From: Alphaproteobacteria bacterium
GTDB taxonomy: Bacteria; Pseudomonadota; Alphaproteobacteria; Reyranellales; Reyranellaceae
Direction of reading: 5' to 3'
Length of the DNA stretch: 64,000 nt
Assembly (NCBI GenBank): GCA_019635875.1
Contig: JAHBYP010000015.1
Coordinates: forward strand, 1 to 64,000
Part shown: piece by piece, positions 33,606 through 63,797 of the stretch
Layout: each line of letters starts with the position of its first letter
Position numbering within the stretch: position 1 is the stretch's first letter
Position numbers and translations under genes: made by a program
Notes under the pieces: model-generated
Database searches by the model: none
What the model saw: only the letters and a program-made list of their open reading frames with translations
What the model was told of the DNA's origin: nothing

Positions 33606-33924
33606 TCGTCCGTCTCCCCGCTTGCGGGGAGACGGCGCCGAGCGCTGGCGAGGCGGATGGGGGGCTTCAATCCTCTCATCCGCCTCAAGTTCGTTGGAGC
33701 GCTGTCGGCCCCCTCGCGCGCCGGCGGAGGAGTAGCGTCCGATCGCACTGGGATCGACATCTGTGACCCTGAATATGGGTGGACCGGCGATTGGCGATGG
33801 GGTTAGCATCGCGACGCGAGCGCCGACCAACAGGCGCCGCTTTAGGGCCTTCCATCCGATCGCCAACTGGCGACGGCTCATGAGAACGCCGGTGTCGCCC
33901 GGCCGTCTGGAGGAGGAAACGCAC
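33606..33924. other. Non-coding stretch with a degenerate family C element
   Basis: About 320 bases without a supported gene. The first part (33610-33690) holds a hairpin cgtctccccgcttgcggggagacg followed by the GAGGCGGATGGGGGGCTTC arm known from the family C element at 62760, but the second half is missing. The rest should contain the promoter and leader of the sugar ABC operon; a strong AGGAGGAA lies at 33911-33918. Confidence 0.7.
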
Positions 33925-47349: not shown

Positions 47350-48309
47350 TCATTGTTCCGGCCCGTACAGCCAGTCCGGCAGATCGTCGTCGGTGTCCTC
47401 GGCTTGCATGGCATAGCCGGGCGGGTCGAAGCCGCCGGGTTTCATGTCGCGCAGGGCGTCGGCCCAGTTCGGCCCGAGCCGGGTCCCGCTGCGTTGGATC
47501 ATCTTGCCGTTGAGGTGGCCGGGCGTGTAATCCGGCGGCGGCGTCGTCGGCATGCCCGGCTCGACCACGCGCTGCGGCTCGGCTTTCGTCTCGGCAGGCG
47601 GTGACTCGGCGGGCGGCGACTCGGTGGGTGGCGACTCTGTAGGCGACTCTGGCGGCGGCGGCTTGCCGGGGCCGGGGCGGATCAGGTTGGCGGCGTCGAT
47701 GGTGGCGTGCGCCGCCGCGAGCGCGGCGCGCACCTCCTCGAGCTCCTGGCGCCAGCGCCGTTTCTCTTCATCTCTATGGTCGAGCCCGCGCTCGTAGCCG
47801 GCGATGCGCTCCTCGTAGCGCTCGCGATCCTCCGGCGTCAGCCCCGGCTTCGGCTTGGCCACCAGCAGGCCGACCTGCTTCGTCAGCATGTTCAGCGCCT
47901 GCAGCTTGCCGAGCTTCAGGGTCACGGTCTGCTCTTGTTTGCCATGGTTGCTGACCTTCAGCTCGACGATGCTGGCGCACTGCGCCTGGCTCGCCTTCAT
48001 CAGGTCGACGCGCACCCGGCCGTCGGCCTCGACGGTGAGGAAGTCCACGACATTGGCGAAGGCGATCCTGGCGTATTCCTGGGCCAGGCGGGTGACGTCG
48101 ACCTCGAGGGCCTGGGCCATGCGCGCCCGGCCGGCGGCGATGGCGGCCTCAATCTTGGGGTCACGCAAGAGCCGGGAGGCGCTGGGCTGGGCGCCGCGCG
48201 GCGAATAGCCGGCGCGGACATAGGCCTGGGTGGCATTGCCGTCCTTGAGGAACTCCAGGACGAAGCGCTCGTGGCGCGGCGAGAGAGGGGGTGTGGTTTC
48301 CGTGCTCAT
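47350..48309 (-). CDS. Terminase small subunit-like protein (orphan)
   Basis: A 319-residue protein starting MSTETTPPLSPRHERFV at ATG 48309; the open frame continues upstream without support. Residues ~12-145 match the Terminase_2 small-subunit pattern (ERFVLEFLKDGNATQAYVRA, ASRLLRDPKIEAAIAAGRAR, VVDFLTVEADGRVRVDL), followed by a charged helix ~165-215 and a Pro-rich ESPTESPP/AESPPAE tail. In phages this protein selects DNA for packaging. No other phage gene is nearby. Part of its 3' half is nearly identical to the partial gene at 2-400 on the other strand. A role outside phage packaging, or a domesticated remnant copied in the genome, is possible. Confidence 0.82.
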   Translation of the reverse strand: MSTETTPPLSPRHERFVLEFLKDGNATQAYVRAGYSPRGAQPSASRLLRDPKIEAAIAAGRARMAQALEVDVTRLAQEYARIAFANVVDFLTVEADGRVRVDLMKASQAQCASIVELKVSNHGKQEQTVTLKLGKLQALNMLTKQVGLLVAKPKPGLTPEDRERYEERIAGYERGLDHRDEEKRRWRQELEEVRAALAAAHATIDAANLIRPGPGKPPPPESPTESPPTESPPAESPPAETKAEPQRVVEPGMPTTPPPDYTPGHLNGKMIQRSGTRLGPNWADALRDMKPGGFDPPGYAMQAEDTDDDLPDWLYGPEQ

Positions 48310-56651: not shown

Positions 56652-57506
56652 ATGCGCCGCTACATCGTCTGCCTGACTTTCGACCACGACCACATGTCCG
56701 GCTTCATCTCGCGTGGCATGACCTCGCCGACGCCGATCTCGCGCGGCGAGTACGACCTCGTCGCCATCCCGCGCATCGTCGAGCTGCTCAGGCGCTACGA
56801 CATCAAGGCGACCTTCTTCACGCCCGGCCACACCATCGAGAGCGCGACCGCCAGCGTCGAGTCGTACGTCGCCGCCGGCCACGAGCTGGCGCATCACGGC
56901 TGGACGCACCGCCTGCCGGTGTCGCTCAGCCGCGAGGAGGAGGAAGAGGAGATCGTGCGCGGCAACGAGGCGATCAGGCGCGTGTCGGGCAAGACCGCGC
57001 GCGGCTACCGCTCGCCGGCCTGGGATCTCAGCCCGCACAGCATTGAGCTGCTGCTCAAGCACGGCATGCGCTACGACAGCTCGATGATGGGCGACGACTA
57101 CGACTGCTACTGGGCGCGCCAGGGCGACCAGGTCGAGCTGCTCAAGCCCTTCGTGCGCGGGCGAGAGACGTCACTCCTGGAGATGCCGATCTCGTGGTCG
57201 CTCGACGACTTCCCGCACTTCGAGTACATGCGCAATCCCAACGGCGGCGTGCAGCAGGGCCTGATGAACGCCTCGGCCGTGCTCGACAATTTCGTCGACG
57301 ACTTCGTCTACATGACCCGGGTACGCGAGCGCGGCATCCTGACCTACACCTTCCATCCGCACGTCATCGGCCGCGGCCATCGCATGATGATGATGGAGCG
57401 CCTGATCCAGAAGCTGATGGAGCACGGCGCGGTGTTCATGACCATGGAAGCCGCCATGGCCGAGTGGCTGTCGTGGCGGCCCGGCAAGCGCGAAGCGGCC
57501 GAGTGA
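56652..57506 (+). CDS. Polysaccharide deacetylase (CE4/NodB homology) family protein
   Basis: A 284-residue NodB-fold protein that, unlike the pair at 19-21 kb, keeps the metal site: Asp-His-Asp in CLTFDHDHMSG and the two His of AGHELAHHGWTH; GYRSPAWDLSPHS supplies the catalytic Arg/Asp region. It resembles HpPgdA-like cytosolic CE4 proteins. No signal peptide. ATG 56652 with GGGAG upstream. Substrate not known; it may be a cyclic imide or N-acetyl sugar. Confidence 0.88.
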   Translation: MRRYIVCLTFDHDHMSGFISRGMTSPTPISRGEYDLVAIPRIVELLRRYDIKATFFTPGHTIESATASVESYVAAGHELAHHGWTHRLPVSLSREEEEEEIVRGNEAIRRVSGKTARGYRSPAWDLSPHSIELLLKHGMRYDSSMMGDDYDCYWARQGDQVELLKPFVRGRETSLLEMPISWSLDDFPHFEYMRNPNGGVQQGLMNASAVLDNFVDDFVYMTRVRERGILTYTFHPHVIGRGHRMMMMERLIQKLMEHGAVFMTMEAAMAEWLSWRPGKREAAE

Positions 57507-57534
57507 GATTGGGACCGCCGGCGTCCCAGGAAGC

Positions 57535-58356
57535 CTAACGGATCGCCAGCCTGAGCATGCGGCAGATGCTGGACATCTTGCCGATCGGGTGATCGACGAA
57601 CAGCGCGATCGACTTGTGGGCTGCCGCGCGCTCGCCCGCCGGCAGATCGGCGGGCCGCAACCGGCCGGCCAGGACGCTGGCGCGGGCCTTGGCGGTGGCG
57701 AGGTTGTCGGCGATGGCGCCGCTCAGGCTGCCGTCGGAATCGGCCGGCGCCAGCAAGGCCCAGACGACGCCCAGCACGCCCGGCCAGTGCGCGAGATGGC
57801 GGTACATGCTGGCCAGCACCCTGCCCTCGTCGCGCTCGCCCAGCATGTTCAGGCGCAGCACAAGCGCCCAGGTCTGCGGGCTCACGTCGGCTTCGGAGAG
57901 CAGCTTGGGCATCGCCGCCCCGGCACCGCCCACCCGCCCCGTGGCGAGCTGGGCGCCCGGCACGACATTGCCCTCGAGGCTCGCCTGCAGCGCCGACAGC
58001 GCCAGCAGGTTCATGGTGTTGCTGATGTCGTAGGTCGCCAGCACCGTCTTGACGCCGGCCAGCGCCGTGGCGTCGAGGCCGACGGCGACCAGCACCTCCG
58101 GCGGCACGCGCGGCAGATCGAGCAGACGCATGCGTTCGCGCAGGCGCTCGGCCTCGCCCTCGATGATGCCCTCGGCGTAGAGCGGTCGCACCGCGGACCA
58201 CGCCCAGGGCAGCGCACCGTCGATGGTCGCAAGGTGGCGCCAGATCAGGTTGACGACGCCGACGCCGAGCGTGGCGCGGATGTCAGCGTAGAGCGCTGCG
58301 ATGTCGCCGGTGGCCTCGGCCTCGGTGATCGCCGGGACGGGATCGCCGGCGCTCAC
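57535..58356 (-). CDS. DehI-like (halocarboxylic acid dehalogenase group I) helical protein
   Basis: A 273-residue, all-helical protein with two similar halves. Segments IAALYADIRATLGVGVVNLIWRHLATIDGALPWAWSAV and the later MYRHLAHWPGVLGVVWALL resemble each other, as in the internally repeated DehI fold of group I 2-haloacid dehalogenases. I recognise the family with moderate certainty only; many genome homologues are annotated as hypothetical. It overlaps the upstream PhyH dioxygenase gene by four bases, so both likely serve one pathway. Confidence 0.5.
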   Translation of the reverse strand: MSAGDPVPAITEAEATGDIAALYADIRATLGVGVVNLIWRHLATIDGALPWAWSAVRPLYAEGIIEGEAERLRERMRLLDLPRVPPEVLVAVGLDATALAGVKTVLATYDISNTMNLLALSALQASLEGNVVPGAQLATGRVGGAGAAMPKLLSEADVSPQTWALVLRLNMLGERDEGRVLASMYRHLAHWPGVLGVVWALLAPADSDGSLSGAIADNLATAKARASVLAGRLRPADLPAGERAAAHKSIALFVDHPIGKMSSICRMLRLAIR

Positions 58357-59234
58357 TCGGCGGCGGCTTTCGCCGAGTCCTGGCCGAGCACGGTGAAGAA
58401 CGAGGCCGATTTCGGCTGCTGCGGCAGCTCCACCTGCCCCGCCTGCAGGCGCGCGAAGCGCGCCGGCTTGCCGCGCACGATCTCGCCCTCATGGGTGCTG
58501 GGCATCGGGTTGCGCGCGATCGGCACGGCGTCGGCGGCAGTGTAGACGCAGATATAGAGGCCGCGCGAGCGATCGCTGCGGTTGGGCTGCGAGCCATGCG
58601 CCAGCTTGGTGTGCATCAGGCAGACCGAGCCGGCCTTGCCGTAGCACGGCACGCTCCTGGCCTTGAGATCCTCCTCGACCTTGGGATCGACCGCACCGGT
58701 GAAGCGCTCGTCCTGGAACAGCGACAGCATCGGCCCCTTGTGCGAGCCGGGCACCACGGTCAGCGCGCCGTTGGTCGCGTCGTTGTCGTCGAGGAACAGC
58801 AGCGCCGTGACGATGTCGTCGTTGGTGTGCGGCGTGTAGGCGAAGTCCTGGTGATAGTCGACCTGGGTACGCGCGCCGGGCAGCTTCAGGTTGATCTTGC
58901 AGTGGTGGAACTTGACGTCCGGGCCGATCAGGTCGGCCACCATGTCAACCGTGCCGGCGTCGCGCATGACCTCGAGATAGGCCGCGGAGATGTCCGACGG
59001 ATTGTTGATGCGCCTGAGCGCCGGCCTGGCCGCGCTGTGCTCGGTGCCCATGTCGAAGCGCGGTCTTCCGTCGACCGTCGGCGGCCCGAACGGCTGGGTA
59101 TGGGCGCGGCTCTGCTCGACCCAGCCGTCGATCTCGGCGCGCAGCGCGGCGAGCTGGCTGGGCGACACGGCGTCCTCGACCACGAGATAGCCGTCGCGCC
59201 AGAACTCCTCGACCTGCTCACGGGTCAACCGCAT
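58353..59234 (-). CDS. Phytanoyl-CoA dioxygenase (PhyH) family protein
   Basis: A 293-residue Fe(II)/2-oxoglutarate dioxygenase. Iron ligands: HxD in VDYHQDFAYTPHTND and the distal His in KLAHGSQPNRSDRSRG, where the following Arg binds 2-oxoglutarate. VVPGSHKGPML is a family signature. The family hydroxylates phytanoyl-CoA, ectoine, halogenated or phosphonate substrates. Start ATG 59234. Downstream overlap (ATGA) with the DehI-like gene. Substrate unknown. Confidence 0.88.
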   Translation of the reverse strand: MRLTREQVEEFWRDGYLVVEDAVSPSQLAALRAEIDGWVEQSRAHTQPFGPPTVDGRPRFDMGTEHSAARPALRRINNPSDISAAYLEVMRDAGTVDMVADLIGPDVKFHHCKINLKLPGARTQVDYHQDFAYTPHTNDDIVTALLFLDDNDATNGALTVVPGSHKGPMLSLFQDERFTGAVDPKVEEDLKARSVPCYGKAGSVCLMHTKLAHGSQPNRSDRSRGLYICVYTAADAVPIARNPMPSTHEGEIVRGKPARFARLQAGQVELPQQPKSASFFTVLGQDSAKAAAE

Positions 59235-59245
59235 AGTTTGCCTCC

Positions 59246-59602
59246 CTAGCGACGCAGCGTGATCATCAGCTGGTCGGGATAGGTGTAGTTACGCGCGTCG
59301 AGCTGCGGCGGCTGGCCGCCGCTGGCGGTGAAGAGCTGGTTGCCGAGGAAACGCGCCTCGAAGCCGCCGCTGATGGTCTCGTAGCCCGCCGCCGAACAGG
59401 CGACGATCAGGGGCGCGATGCCCTTGGAAACCGTCAGGCTGCCCGGCGTCTGGGGCACGGTGCCGAGATCCAGGTTCTCGCGCGTCACCTGGCAGGAGGC
59501 GCCCGGTGGGTCGGACGTCACCCTTACCACCTGGTCAGCCGCCTCATCGGCGCAGGCCGACAGGCACAGCGCCAGCACCATCCATCCACTCGCTCGTCGC
59601 AT
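59246..59602 (-). CDS. Small lipoprotein with PEGA-like domain
   Basis: A 118-residue protein starting at ATG 59602, with GAGGA six bases upstream. The lipobox is LALCLSAC (acylated Cys at residue ~17 after MRRASGWMV). The rest, VRVTSDPPGASCQVTREN...GSLTVSKGIAPLIVACSAAGYE, has the PEGA pattern of a surface-exposed beta domain. It lies 11 bases upstream of the PhyH start region and 96 bases beyond the DprE2 stop. Function unknown. Confidence 0.75.
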   Translation of the reverse strand: MRRASGWMVLALCLSACADEAADQVVRVTSDPPGASCQVTRENLDLGTVPQTPGSLTVSKGIAPLIVACSAAGYETISGGFEARFLGNQLFTASGGQPPQLDARNYTYPDQLMITLRR

Positions 59603-59698
59603 CACCGATCCTCGCAGGCCATGCATCCTTCTATCTTACCTTCGGCATCCGGGAAATCCTGTCGCACCCGCGCCGCTCGCAATTTCACCCCACGGCGG

Positions 59699-60445
59699 TC
59701 AGATCGGCAGCCTGCGGAAGATGCGGTAGGGCACCGACTTGATGATGGCCATGATGACGAACCAGAACCACGGGAAATAGGACTCGCCCGCGCCCCTGCC
59801 CTCGGCCAGCTTCAGCGCCCGCTCGGCCAGAGCCCTGGGCGTGGCCATCAGCGGGCCGTCCTTGACGTTGCCCCAGCTCATGCTGGTGTCGATGAAGCCC
59901 GGCTTGATGTTGATCACCCGCACGCCGGCGCGATCGAGCACGATGCGCAGCCCCTGCAGGAAGGTGTGCAGCCCCGCCTTGGCTGAACCGTAGGTGTAGT
60001 TCGACGCCCGCCCGCGGTCGCCGGCCACCGAACCGAGCACCACGACCACGCCCTTGCGCGCCTCCAGCACCGGCTTGAGCCACAGCAGGATGGAGGCCGC
60101 GCCGGTGAAGTTGGCGTTGATGACATGCGCGCCGAGCTCGGGCGCGGCGTCGATCTCGGCCTGCGAAGGCATGAAGCCGAAGGCGACGAAGACGCCGAGC
60201 GGTCCCTCGCCTTCCGCCGCGACGCGGCGCACGAAGGCCTCGTGCGAGGCCATGTCGAGCGCGTCGAACTCGACCACCGACACGGCGTGGCCGCCGCGGA
60301 TTCGCAGGTCGGTGGCGCTGCGCTCCATGTCCTCGAGGTCGCGGCCGGCGAGCACGACGTCGACGCCGCGCGCGGCGGCGAGCCGCGCGAACTCGCGCGC
60401 GATCGGCGAGGTGGCACCCAGGATCAGCCAGCGGGACATGGTCAT
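59699..60445 (-). CDS. dprE2: Decaprenylphospho-beta-D-erythro-pentosid-2-ulose 2-reductase-like SDR (DprE2)
   Basis: A 248-residue SDR: LILGATSPIAREFARLAA cofactor loop, FGFMPSQAE region, SYG-type catalytic site NYTYGSAKAGLHTFLQGL and the C-terminal KSVPYRIFRRLPI that ends as mycobacterial DprE2 does (IFRKLPI). DprE2 reduces the 2'-keto intermediate to polyprenyl-phospho-D-arabinose with NADH. The start ATG overlaps the DprE1 stop (ATGA), as in mycobacteria, where the two enzymes act as a pair. The protein also has a C-terminal hydrophobic stretch (FVIMAIIKSV) that may bind the membrane. Confidence 0.87.
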   Translation of the reverse strand: MTMSRWLILGATSPIAREFARLAAARGVDVVLAGRDLEDMERSATDLRIRGGHAVSVVEFDALDMASHEAFVRRVAAEGEGPLGVFVAFGFMPSQAEIDAAPELGAHVINANFTGAASILLWLKPVLEARKGVVVVLGSVAGDRGRASNYTYGSAKAGLHTFLQGLRIVLDRAGVRVINIKPGFIDTSMSWGNVKDGPLMATPRALAERALKLAEGRGAGESYFPWFWFVIMAIIKSVPYRIFRRLPI

Positions 60446-61767
60446 GGCGCGCCTCCGCGGATCGCCAGTCGTCGCGACATGCTCGAGCCCAGCCGCCGCT
60501 GCGGATCGACGCGCTCGAGCACGTCCAGGAACGCCGGCAGCCGCCGATACATCGCGGCGAAGCCCTGCGGCGAGAGGCAGGAATCCTTGGCGAGATAGAC
60601 GCGCCCGCCGTGGTCGAGCGTGATGCGCTCCAGATCGCCCAGCAGCTCGACGATGCCCGGCTTGTTGGGGAAGTCGAGCGCCACGCCATAGCCCGGCATC
60701 GGGAAGGACAGCATGCCGGTTCCGGCCGGCCCCATCGCCTTGAGCACCGCAAGGAACGAGCCGGCACGCGACTCGCGGATGCGCTCCAGCAGCGGCACCA
60801 GCGCCGCGGCCGGCACGATGCTCTGGAACTGGCGGAAGCCACGCTTGCCGTACATGCGGTTCCAGCCCAGCAGCGAGTCGAGCGGAAACAGGAATGCATC
60901 GTAGCCGCGCAGGCTCTCGCGCCCGGCCGCCGGCACGCGGGCGCGATAGAGGGCGTTGAAGGCGCGCACCGAGAGCGGATTGAGCACCAGCGACGGCGGC
61001 GTGACCGGCAGGGATTTCGGACTGCGCTTCTTGACCCGGATGTCGGTCGGCGACGGCGTCGCCGTCTCGACGATGCCGCGGCCGAGATTGCCGTCGCTCG
61101 CCAGGGCGTCGAACCAGGCCACCGAATAGGTGGCGCCCACCTCCTCGTGCAGCCTGGCCAGCAGTGCGTCGAGATCCGGCACCGGTCGCTCGCGCACGAT
61201 CAGCGCGTTCGACGGAACGCGGGCAAGGCGCAGGCAGGCGGTGACGATGATCCCCGTGAGCCCGATGCCGCCGACCGTGGCGTCGAACAGCGCCGGATCG
61301 CTGTCGCGCGACACGCGCACGATCTCGCCGCTGGGCAGCATCAGCTCGAACCAGGCGACATGGGCGCCGAAGGCGCCGTCCTTCTCGTGGTTCTTGCCGT
61401 GCACGTCGTTGGCGATCGCGCCGCCCACCGTGACATAGGCGGTGCCCGGGCAGACCGGCACCATCAAGCCGCGTGGCAGGAAGACGTCGAGCAGGCTGCG
61501 AAGGCTGATGCCGGCCTCGACCACGACCTCGCCCGACTCGGCGTCGAAGGCGACGAGGCGATCGAGCCGTTCGGTCATCACCAGGCGGCCGCCCTCGTTG
61601 ACGGCGCAATCGCCGTAGCTGCGGCCCAGGCCGCGCGCGATCAGGCTGCCCGGCCCGCTTCCCGTCATCGCCGCCCGCAACTGGCTGAATCGCTCCGGTC
61701 GCGTCGCCTCGCTGGTGCCGTAGGGCAGCCGGCCCCAGCCGCTGAATGCGGCTGTCTTCCACATCAT
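60442..61767 (-). CDS. dprE1: Decaprenylphosphoryl-beta-D-ribose 2-oxidase-like FAD enzyme (DprE1)
   Basis: A 441-residue FAD oxidoreductase. The FAD domain has GLGRSYGDCAVNEGG and VTVGGAIANDVHGKNHEKDG (the mycobacterial active-site His region, DIHGKNH). The substrate domain has LSFPMPGYGVALDFPNKPG and GGRVYLAKDSCLSP, the latter with the Lys equivalent of Lys418 of M. tuberculosis. At the position of Cys387, the residue hit by benzothiazinones, this protein has Ala. It oxidises the ribose 2'-OH of polyprenyl-phospho-ribose; DprE2 completes the epimerisation. ATG 61767 overlaps the flippase stop. Confidence 0.9.
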   Translation of the reverse strand: MMWKTAAFSGWGRLPYGTSEATRPERFSQLRAAMTGSGPGSLIARGLGRSYGDCAVNEGGRLVMTERLDRLVAFDAESGEVVVEAGISLRSLLDVFLPRGLMVPVCPGTAYVTVGGAIANDVHGKNHEKDGAFGAHVAWFELMLPSGEIVRVSRDSDPALFDATVGGIGLTGIIVTACLRLARVPSNALIVRERPVPDLDALLARLHEEVGATYSVAWFDALASDGNLGRGIVETATPSPTDIRVKKRSPKSLPVTPPSLVLNPLSVRAFNALYRARVPAAGRESLRGYDAFLFPLDSLLGWNRMYGKRGFRQFQSIVPAAALVPLLERIRESRAGSFLAVLKAMGPAGTGMLSFPMPGYGVALDFPNKPGIVELLGDLERITLDHGGRVYLAKDSCLSPQGFAAMYRRLPAFLDVLERVDPQRRLGSSMSRRLAIRGGAP

Positions 61768-62750
61768 GCCGTCGCCTCCCGAGTGACGCGCCGCATGGCG
61801 AGCGGCAGGCAGCCCATGCCCAGCGCGACCGAGAACCACAGGGTGGTGAGCCGCACCAGCGCCGTGGCCGTCACCGCGATCTCGAACGACACGCCGCGCT
61901 GGGTCAGCAGCGCCACCATGCCGATCTCGGTGCCGCCCAGCCCGCCGGGCAGCATGGTGGCCGACCCGACCACCATCGACACCGCGAAGGCGACGGCCGC
62001 GCCCCAGATGTCGATCGCGCCACCCAGCGCGCGCACCACCCACCAGACCTGCACCGCCTCGGCGAACCAGCCCAGCAGCGACAGCAGCAGCGCCGCCAGC
62101 AGGCGCCACGGCGAGCCGAGCTTGGCGAGCTGATTGACCGCGATGCGCAGGCGACCGAACAGCCTTGGCTTGCGCCGCACCACGCCGTATCCCCAGCCGA
62201 CCATGATGGCGAGGTAGCGCGGCCGGACCATCAGGAACACCGCGACCAGGGTAATCGCCGCCATCGGCACGATGGCGCTGACGCTGGCCTGCAGCAGCGC
62301 GATGCCGAGCAGCGCGATGATCACCAGCGCCGCGGCATCGGCGATGCGGTCGGCGGCCACCAGCGCCAGCGTGCGCTCGTAGCCGTGGCCATGCCCGCGC
62401 CGCAGGAACCACAGGCGCAGCGCCTCGCCGATCTTGCCCGGCGTCACGGTCATCGAGAAGCCGGCGACGTAATAGAGCGTGTCGCGCGGCAGGCTGACGC
62501 CCAGCCCCAGGCCGCGCGTGTAGAGATGCCAGCGGATCGCGCGCGTGACGTAGTTTACCAGCGACAGGCCGAGGCAGCCCAGCACGACGCCGGGGCTGAT
62601 GCGCGAAAGCGTCTCGAGCATGGTCTGCGACTCGCCCAGGGCGAAGACGGCAGTGGCAACCAGCATCGACGCCAGCAACCCGCCCGCCAGCCACAGCAGG
62701 GCGCGCCGCCGCCAGGCGGTGCCGACATCGGGTCCGCTGGAACGGCTCAT
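61764..62750 (-). CDS. Flippase-like (LPG synthase TM, UPF0104) integral membrane protein
   Basis: A 328-residue membrane protein of PF03706: about eight helices, with RAIRWHLYTRGLG, YVAGFSMTVTPGKIGEALRLWFLRR, ADRIADAAALVIIALLG and MLPGGLGGTEIGMVALL as family landmarks. Some relatives translocate or modify lipids. Its position between the UbiA-type and DprE1 genes suggests transport of the polyprenyl-phospho-sugar across the inner membrane (inference). In mycobacteria another protein class does this. Confidence 0.85.
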   Translation of the reverse strand: MSRSSGPDVGTAWRRRALLWLAGGLLASMLVATAVFALGESQTMLETLSRISPGVVLGCLGLSLVNYVTRAIRWHLYTRGLGLGVSLPRDTLYYVAGFSMTVTPGKIGEALRLWFLRRGHGHGYERTLALVAADRIADAAALVIIALLGIALLQASVSAIVPMAAITLVAVFLMVRPRYLAIMVGWGYGVVRRKPRLFGRLRIAVNQLAKLGSPWRLLAALLLSLLGWFAEAVQVWWVVRALGGAIDIWGAAVAFAVSMVVGSATMLPGGLGGTEIGMVALLTQRGVSFEIAVTATALVRLTTLWFSVALGMGCLPLAMRRVTREATA

Positions 62751-62759
62751 CTGTCATAT

Positions 62760-62914
62760 CCTTCTCCCCGCGCAGGCGGGGAGAAGGTGCCGAGCGCCAG
62801 CGAGGCGGATGAGGGGCTTCCTCGCGCAACGACTACCGTCGGTGCCGCAGGGACTCCGCGAAGCCCCTCATCCGCCCTTCGGGCACCTTCTCCCCGCCTG
62901 CGCGGGGAGAAGGA
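62760..62914. repeat. Family C compound palindrome, copy 2
   Basis: About 155 bases: outer hairpins ccttctccccgcgcaggcgg-ggagaagg and ccttctccccgcctgcgcgg-ggagaagg, inner arms GGCGGATGAGGGGCTTC / GAAGCCCCTCATCCGCC. The complete form of this family. Inserted within the arabinose cassette between the UbiA and flippase genes. Confidence 0.9.
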
Positions 62915-62918
62915 AATC

Positions 62919-63797
62919 CTAAGCGAAGCGGCCATAGATCAGCACCGCAAAGGTCGCCAGCCAGCCGATCACGCACCACAGGATCATGCGGTCGGTGAGT
63001 AGGATGCGGGTGGGCGATCCCGAGCGCTCCTCGACCATGGTGATCTGCAGGTAGCGCAGGATGCCGGCGACCACGAAAGGCGTGGTGTAGAACACCTTGG
63101 TCGTGCCCAGGCGCTGCATCACGTTGGTGTCGGTGGCGTAGATCAGGTAGGTCACCAGCAGCGCGCCCAGGATGACGGCGATGATCGAATCGAGGAACGG
63201 CTTGCTGTAGCCCTCGATGCTCTTGCGATGCGAAGCGTCGAGGCCCTGCACCAGATCGTCGCGCCGCTTGGCGACGGCGAGGAACAGCGCCAGCAATCCC
63301 GTGGCGATCACCAGCCAGGCGCTGGCCTCGATGCCGATCAGGAAGGCGCCGCCCTCGACACGCAGGACGAAGCCCAGGGCGATCACCATCACGTCGAGGA
63401 TCGCCACCGATTTCAGGCCGAAGGTGTAGGCGACGTTGAGCGCGAAATAGACCGTCACGATCCAGAAGAAGGCACGCGGCAGCCAGAGGAACGAGCCGGC
63501 CAGCGCGAAGGCCAGCAGCGCCGCCATCAACGCGAAGGCAAACGGCACGGCCACCGTACCCGCCGCCAGCGGCCGGCTCTTCTTGCGCGGGTGCACGCGG
63601 TCCGATTCGCGATCGCGGTAATCGTTGAGCACATAGACCGCGCTGGACACGGCGCAGAAGCAGGCGACGCCCAGCGCGACGTTGCGCAGATTGGCGGCGC
63701 TGAGCGCCGCGGGCGTAAAGAACAGGGGCGCGACGACAAACGCGTTCTTTACCCACTGCTCGGGCCGCAGCAGCCTGATGATCGCCAGAACGCTCAT
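62919..63797 (-). CDS. UbiA-type decaprenyl-phosphate phosphoribosyltransferase-like protein
   Basis: A 292-residue membrane prenyltransferase-fold enzyme with about eight or nine helices. It starts LLRPEQWVKNAFVVAPLFF and has the Mg/diphosphate motif NDYRDRESDRVHPRK followed by SRPLAAG, and the second LDVMVIALGFVLRVEGG. These match Rv3806c-type decaprenyl-phosphate 5-phosphoribosyltransferases rather than ubiquinone UbiA. It transfers phosphoribose from PRPP to polyprenyl phosphate, the first step toward polyprenyl-phospho-arabinose. First gene of the cassette; its 3' neighbour is a palindrome. Confidence 0.88.
   Translation of the reverse strand: MSVLAIIRLLRPEQWVKNAFVVAPLFFTPAALSAANLRNVALGVACFCAVSSAVYVLNDYRDRESDRVHPRKKSRPLAAGTVAVPFAFALMAALLAFALAGSFLWLPRAFFWIVTVYFALNVAYTFGLKSVAILDVMVIALGFVLRVEGGAFLIGIEASAWLVIATGLLALFLAVAKRRDDLVQGLDASHRKSIEGYSKPFLDSIIAVILGALLVTYLIYATDTNVMQRLGTTKVFYTTPFVVAGILRYLQITMVEERSGSPTRILLTDRMILWCVIGWLATFAVLIYGRFA

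Follow-up and report, generated by a model that had tools for sequence, protein, structure and literature searches.

An MprF-fold membrane protein in the flippase position of a predicted polyprenyl-phosphate D-arabinofuranose donor cassette from a Reyranellaceae bacterium

The mycobacterial DPA pathway for a polyprenyl-phosphate-linked D-arabinofuranose (D-Araf) donor comprises Rv3806c, Rv3790 (DprE1), Rv3791 (DprE2), the GtrA/SMR protein Rv3789 and the phosphatase Rv3807c. More generally, three-component pentofuranose systems have been described that consist of a polyprenyl-phosphate-ribose synthase, a flippase and a GT-C, with DprE1/DprE2 added for Araf, and homologues of DprE1/DprE2 track Araf-containing glycans in general (Kelly et al. 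2024, PMC11127046). Similar genes have been linked to D-Araf on the pilin of Pseudomonas paraeruginosa pili (PMC12369383) and to the Nod factors of Azorhizobium (PMC2443382). Because the literature links such genes to D-Araf in pili, Nod factors and glycans, the cassette described here is of an already known type. Such cassettes are fairly common in Proteobacteria and have been described or proposed in other species. A DprE1 relative (E≤1e-30) occurs in 54 of 385 sampled Alphaproteobacteria, so that the first-pass annotation needs the correction that the cassette is not rare. Near full-length relatives were present in about 20 of 100 Pseudomonadota, and 64 plasmid records, 34 of them from Rhizobium, carry a DprE1 relative. 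D-arabinose donors, regarded as a mycobacterial signature, are thus spread over many Alphaproteobacteria, and for most of those with the donor genes we know of no described arabinosylated molecule. A literature search on Reyranella and arabinose returned nothing relevant, and D-arabinofuranose, lipopolysaccharide and Alphaproteobacteria were never found together in the literature searched.

The window, i.e. the whole stretch of 64,000 nucleotides that was analysed, comprises bases 1-64000 of contig 15 of a 6.2-Mb genome (G000); the contig ends at 70349. Gene calls outside the cassette were mostly transport and catabolic genes. All four cassette ORFs were recovered on the minus strand in the ORF calls of the window, with the following features:

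62919..63797, minus strand: predicted UbiA-family polyprenyl-phosphate 5-phosphoribosyltransferase (Rv3806c-like), 292 aa; NF008977, PDB 8j8j, NDYRDRESDRVHPxKxxRP motif
62751..62918, no strand: spacer containing an inverted pair of 33-bp repeats, at 62759-62791 and at 62882-62914
61764..62750, minus strand: LPG_synthase_TM/YbhN membrane protein resembling flippases, 328 aa; candidate flippase for polyprenyl-P-arabinose; PF03706, TIGR00374, MprF-domain model match
60442..61767, minus strand: DprE1-like FAD oxidase, 441 aa; profiles, M. tuberculosis DprE1 match, active-site residues
59699..60445, minus strand: DprE2-like SDR reductase, 248 aa; YxxxK and C-terminal IFRRLPI
59246..59626, minus strand: small lipoprotein-like ORF adjoining DprE2, 126 aa; kept in both genera with a YbhN-type cassette

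These coordinates confirm the annotated arrangement of four genes on one strand with the last three joined by ATGA, the 4-bp overlaps being located at 61764-61767 (YbhN/DprE1) and 60442-60445 (DprE1/DprE2). The motifs quoted in the first pass (DVHGKNH, AKDS, NDYRDRESDRVHP and C-terminal FRRLPI) are all present in the cassette proteins. The UbiA and YbhN genes are separated by a gap of 168 bp which contains the two inverted repeat copies; a 45-bp stretch at 33624-33668 of the window is related to this repeat. Among genomes of the window's genus, the four ORFs are intact, 85-93% identical and conserved in order, and they are conserved in a second genus as well. The UbiA protein of the closest named relative, a Reyranellaceae MAG, is 93% identical, and one scan for relatives using the UbiA protein returned only 7. 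The lipoprotein-like ORF matched no Pfam or NCBIfam profile; together with genes for a PhyH dioxygenase and a polysaccharide deacetylase, it forms a region (56652-59626) beside the cassette that is kept in both YbhN-type genera. In two sister genomes, an ORF that we judged by eye to be terminase-small-subunit-like is located between DprE2 and the lipoprotein gene (L008 14314-15222, L009 12496-13359), and an ORF at 47350-48309 of the window resembles it.

The identity of the three enzymes was assessed by profile, structure-database and tree comparisons. UbiA passed the NCBIfam equivalog model NF008977 (250.8 bits, cut-off 234), fell narrowly below the related model NF008978 (206.3 versus 207 bits) and matched the solved phosphoribosyltransferase PDB 8j8j with 123 bits (E 1e-34). 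In a quick tree in which two outgroup rows were very long-branched, it grouped with Rv3806c and away from the other UbiA-family enzymes of G000. DprE1 matched its M. tuberculosis counterpart with 275 bits (E 1e-80) and 39% identity (173 of 448 aligned positions), and residues H123, K125, Q313, Q315 and K394 correspond to H132, K134, Q334, Q336 and K418 of the M. tuberculosis enzyme. Position C387, to which benzothiazinones attach in the M. tuberculosis enzyme, is replaced by alanine (A363), so covalent inhibition by these compounds is not expected. DprE1 scored below the cut-off of the mycobacterial equivalog NF053785 (403.4 versus 500 bits), which was still by far its best family (next 65.5); it belongs with M. 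tuberculosis DprE1 to the broad DprE1-like family outside other FAD_binding_4 oxidases, with His132, Lys134 and Lys418 kept. DprE2 matched the solved DprE2 with 102 bits (E 3e-28) and shares with it YxxxK and the C-terminal IFR(R/K)LPI; it remained below the cut-off of NF053786 (170.5 versus 250 bits) and scored better on a generic SDR model (239 bits, likewise below cut-off). Since both proteins miss the strict mycobacterial cut-offs, we refer to them only as DprE1-like and DprE2-like, in the case of DprE2 on account of the operon and the C-terminal match. Homology and conserved active-site residues thus provide good support for the predicted UbiA and DprE1/DprE2 steps, and the assignment to a polyprenyl-P-D-arabinose donor pathway made in the first pass is upheld by profiles, outgroup trees and catalytic residues.

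The trees which the first-pass annotation had named as a test of this assignment placed DprE1 apart from unrelated FAD oxidases and UbiA apart from ubiquinone prenyltransferases. A quick maximum-likelihood tree, built from 93 proteins of DprE1-like and outgroup type, set the DprE1 family apart from other FAD oxidases with an SH-aLRT of 77. The window DprE1 fell into a 24-member alphaproteobacterial clade (SH-aLRT 98) with 12 YbhN-type and no GtrA-type loci, distinct from the group holding M. tuberculosis DprE1 and GtrA-type cassettes. The UbiA tree yielded a similar clade, both trees being limited by long outgroup branches. Hence, the label 'mycobacterial-type' appears to be correct for the predicted reaction and incorrect for the ancestry. 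In g69, the large sister genus within the family (L065, L068), the cassette is a different one that belongs to the other DprE1 clade and is often GtrA-type.

The flippase step is seldom assigned in lipid-linked sugar pathways, and PF03706 proteins are widespread with mostly unassigned substrates. The cassette would link one such protein to one lipid of defined chemistry, polyprenyl-P-Araf, making the assignment testable. The YbhN protein scored 143.9 bits against PF03706 (LPG_synthase_TM; gathering threshold 33.4) and 89.7 bits against TIGR00374. Its predicted structure, modelled from 5 sequences with a mean pLDDT of 72, matched the MprF flippase domain with Z of 20-22 over 260-267 residues, the next fold reaching 6.4; a PDB sequence search with the protein gave no relevant match. 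The neighbourhood of DprE1 was examined at 81 loci chosen by similarity to the window DprE1, to UbiA or to plasmid matches. Within 4 kb, 26 loci had only GtrA, 15 only YbhN (PF03706), none both and 40 neither, in a count in which near-identical sister loci were scored separately (L014 and L062 being one contig), the profiles had been trained using some of these loci and neighbours could be hidden by contig ends. As 40 of the 81 loci have neither gene nearby, GtrA or YbhN is not strictly needed in cis. YbhN density was 24.5 per Mb at ≤3 kb from DprE1 and 2.3 beyond; all 14 matches within 3 kb share the strand of DprE1, and overlaps or short gaps between genes were found in most YbhN cassettes. 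These cassettes occur mostly in the window's DprE1 clade and additionally in L021 (outside the class) and L180; because the latter two fall outside the clade, the association arose at least twice and probably three times. In G016, the cassette has no YbhN; the closest relative of the clade's YbhN proteins in this genome sits at another place, next to a relative of the GT-C that adjoins the G016 cassette.

A flippase role for proteins of this family was put forward by Makarova et al. PF03706 proteins of solved structure include MprF, which flips aminoacyl-phosphatidylglycerol. The analysis, from 2015, proposed pfam03706 proteins as flippases in glycosylation (PMC5898192). Its place in the operon, the mutual exclusion with GtrA, the recurring association and the modelled fold indicate that the YbhN protein probably acts as the flippase of the pathway, and export of lipid-linked arabinose is its likely, predicted function. 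A second YbhN gene of G000 adjoins a GT2 synthase gene, with a PMT_2 GT-C and a methyltransferase-like ORF close by (L111 9000-13406, about 273-277.4 kb of contig 1), a cluster that is possibly a second lipid-linked sugar system of this genome.

With respect to the remaining steps, the window's gene calls and the remaining 6.3 kb of the contig yielded neither a GT-C nor a PAP2-like membrane protein, in agreement with the absence of an arabinosyltransferase and a phosphatase from the window noted in the first pass; a HAD phosphatase of the PRP type was not found in the G000 genome. Many cassettes elsewhere are accompanied by a GT-C, but those of the window's genus and of the sister genus have none next to them. 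The recommended search beyond the window failed for the contig remainder and the sister loci, where, as in the window, no complete D-arabinosylation system with a linked GT-C was detected, and yielded only unlinked candidates, a 471-aa GT-C-like protein and a GT87 pair. The former (contig 3, 67860-69272; FDDEI...HPPLS motif) occurs in only four of 75 family genomes (G000, G100, G101 and G103), which are the YbhN-type cassette genomes of the family minus one 67%-complete MAG. This distribution alone carries little weight since the genera sharing the protein are close relatives. In the G375 operon, a homologue overlaps DprE2. The protein is rare: of 385 Alphaproteobacteria only 3 had it, including G188, in which no DprE1 was detected, and the remaining YbhN-type lineages of the sample lacked it. 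Searching PDB sequences with the GT-C profile and with the GT87 protein gave no relevant match. Judged from its distribution and the one operon elsewhere, the 471-aa protein is the best unlinked GT-C candidate and might carry out the transfer step. In both genera its gene overlaps or adjoins a 142-aa ORF and lies near two genes (L144 8857-18482, L199 3037-12478) that we judged by eye to be alpha-2-macroglobulin-like, this one being large, and PBP1C-like. Two further groups were discarded: the GT-C family of L016, L153, L065, L068 and L019 has no match in G000 and one in G103, and the PMT_2 GT-Cs of G000 are located in other clusters.

Several other explanations were weighed. The donor pathway could operate as proposed with the tandem GT87 pair (contig 3:625623-627922) as transferase instead of the 471-aa GT-C. 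Over 98% of its length, the GT87 protein shares 37% identity with a GT87 adjoining a UbiA-GtrA-DprE cassette in G224, and GT87 genes also occur near cassettes in G366 and Indioceanicola. However, relatives are present in 35 of the 75 family genomes, both with and without a cassette, too widespread for a cassette-specific transferase, and none was found in the cassette genome G100; we consider this explanation unlikely. The lack of a GT-C in the window and around the cassettes of sister genomes, with transferase and phosphatase missing alongside, might also mark a decayed leftover without use. Four intact ORFs with conserved order, the 85-93% identity and the retained active-site residues argue against decay, which we regard as highly improbable.

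A further explanation leaves the donor pathway in place and gives the YbhN protein another cargo, for example a phospholipid as in MprF, with polyprenyl-P-arabinose exported by an unlinked GtrA. Two GtrA genes are indeed present elsewhere in G000 (C3:309601 and C4:111798), and the solved members of PF03706 provide a precedent for phospholipid flipping. Yet the YbhN gene has its place inside the operon, flanked by UbiA and DprE1 and with overlaps; at none of the 81 loci does it occur together with GtrA within 4 kb, and it accompanies the cassette again in separate lineages, so that we hold a different cargo to be rather doubtful. Less probable still is a lipid-linked sugar other than D-arabinose, the DprE pair yielding another pentofuranose or acting on another polyprenyl-P sugar. 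The scores of DprE1 and DprE2 below the curated mycobacterial cut-offs would allow for it, as would Citrobacter ORF13-type epimerases, which yield xylofuranose (PMC11127046). Against it, the key active-site residues of DprE1 are conserved, DprE1/DprE2 homologues track Araf glycans, and xylofuranose is made via a single, different SDR epimerase (PMC11127046).

Taken together, the cassette likely serves both to synthesise and to export a D-arabinofuranose donor linked to polyprenyl phosphate, a reading that includes flipping by YbhN and an unlinked GT-C. Following the UbiA reaction, an unlinked phosphatase would take off the 5-phosphate; DprE1 with FAD would oxidise C2 and DprE2 would reduce it back, inverting ribose to arabinose. 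The YbhN/MprF-fold protein would then take the part of the usual GtrA/SMR protein and flip the lipid-arabinose to the periplasmic side, where an unlinked GT-C, most likely the 471-aa protein, would transfer the sugar to a glycan, a lipid or a protein of the envelope. The first-pass annotation rightly offered a D-arabinose product as inference, and we likewise infer the presence of D-arabinose, its acceptor and the glycosyltransferase. A broader proposal, which may well prove wrong, is that in one alphaproteobacterial branch MprF-fold (PF03706) proteins are dedicated polyprenyl-P-arabinofuranose flippases that have replaced GtrA/SMR more than once and feed a rare GT-C putting D-arabinose on an undescribed envelope molecule.

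Compared to the described systems, the locus has UbiA and DprE1/DprE2, including key residues, in common with the mycobacterial DPA pathway. It differs in having a YbhN/MprF-fold protein in place of the SMR-type Rv3789, in lacking a linked phosphatase or arabinosyltransferase, in the Cys387 to Ala exchange and in its separate DprE1 clade. The D-Araf pilin cassette of P. paraeruginosa PA7 (PSPA7_6245-6251, TfpW; PMC12369383) is likewise a Gram-negative polyprenyl-P-Araf donor pathway. Its known components include TfpW, a GT-C specific for pilin, as well as a separate phosphatase; neither is linked in the window. Within the three-component scheme (PMC11127046), the prototype flippase is MATE and the mycobacterial one SMR-type, whereas the putative one of the window is MprF-type, and the window lacks the fused HAD phosphatase. 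The noeCHOP genes of Azorhizobium (PMC2443382), likened here by description, are also alphaproteobacterial and similar to the mycobacterial arabinose-donor genes, but belong to a Nod factor cluster. Finally, the usual alphaproteobacterial HAD-UbiA/GtrA/DprE1/DprE2 cassettes (L018, L019, L083 and L084) have the same donor enzymes in similar order, while the window has YbhN for GtrA and a UbiA without the HAD domain. The new element is the MprF-like YbhN protein that occupies the slot of the usual flippase.
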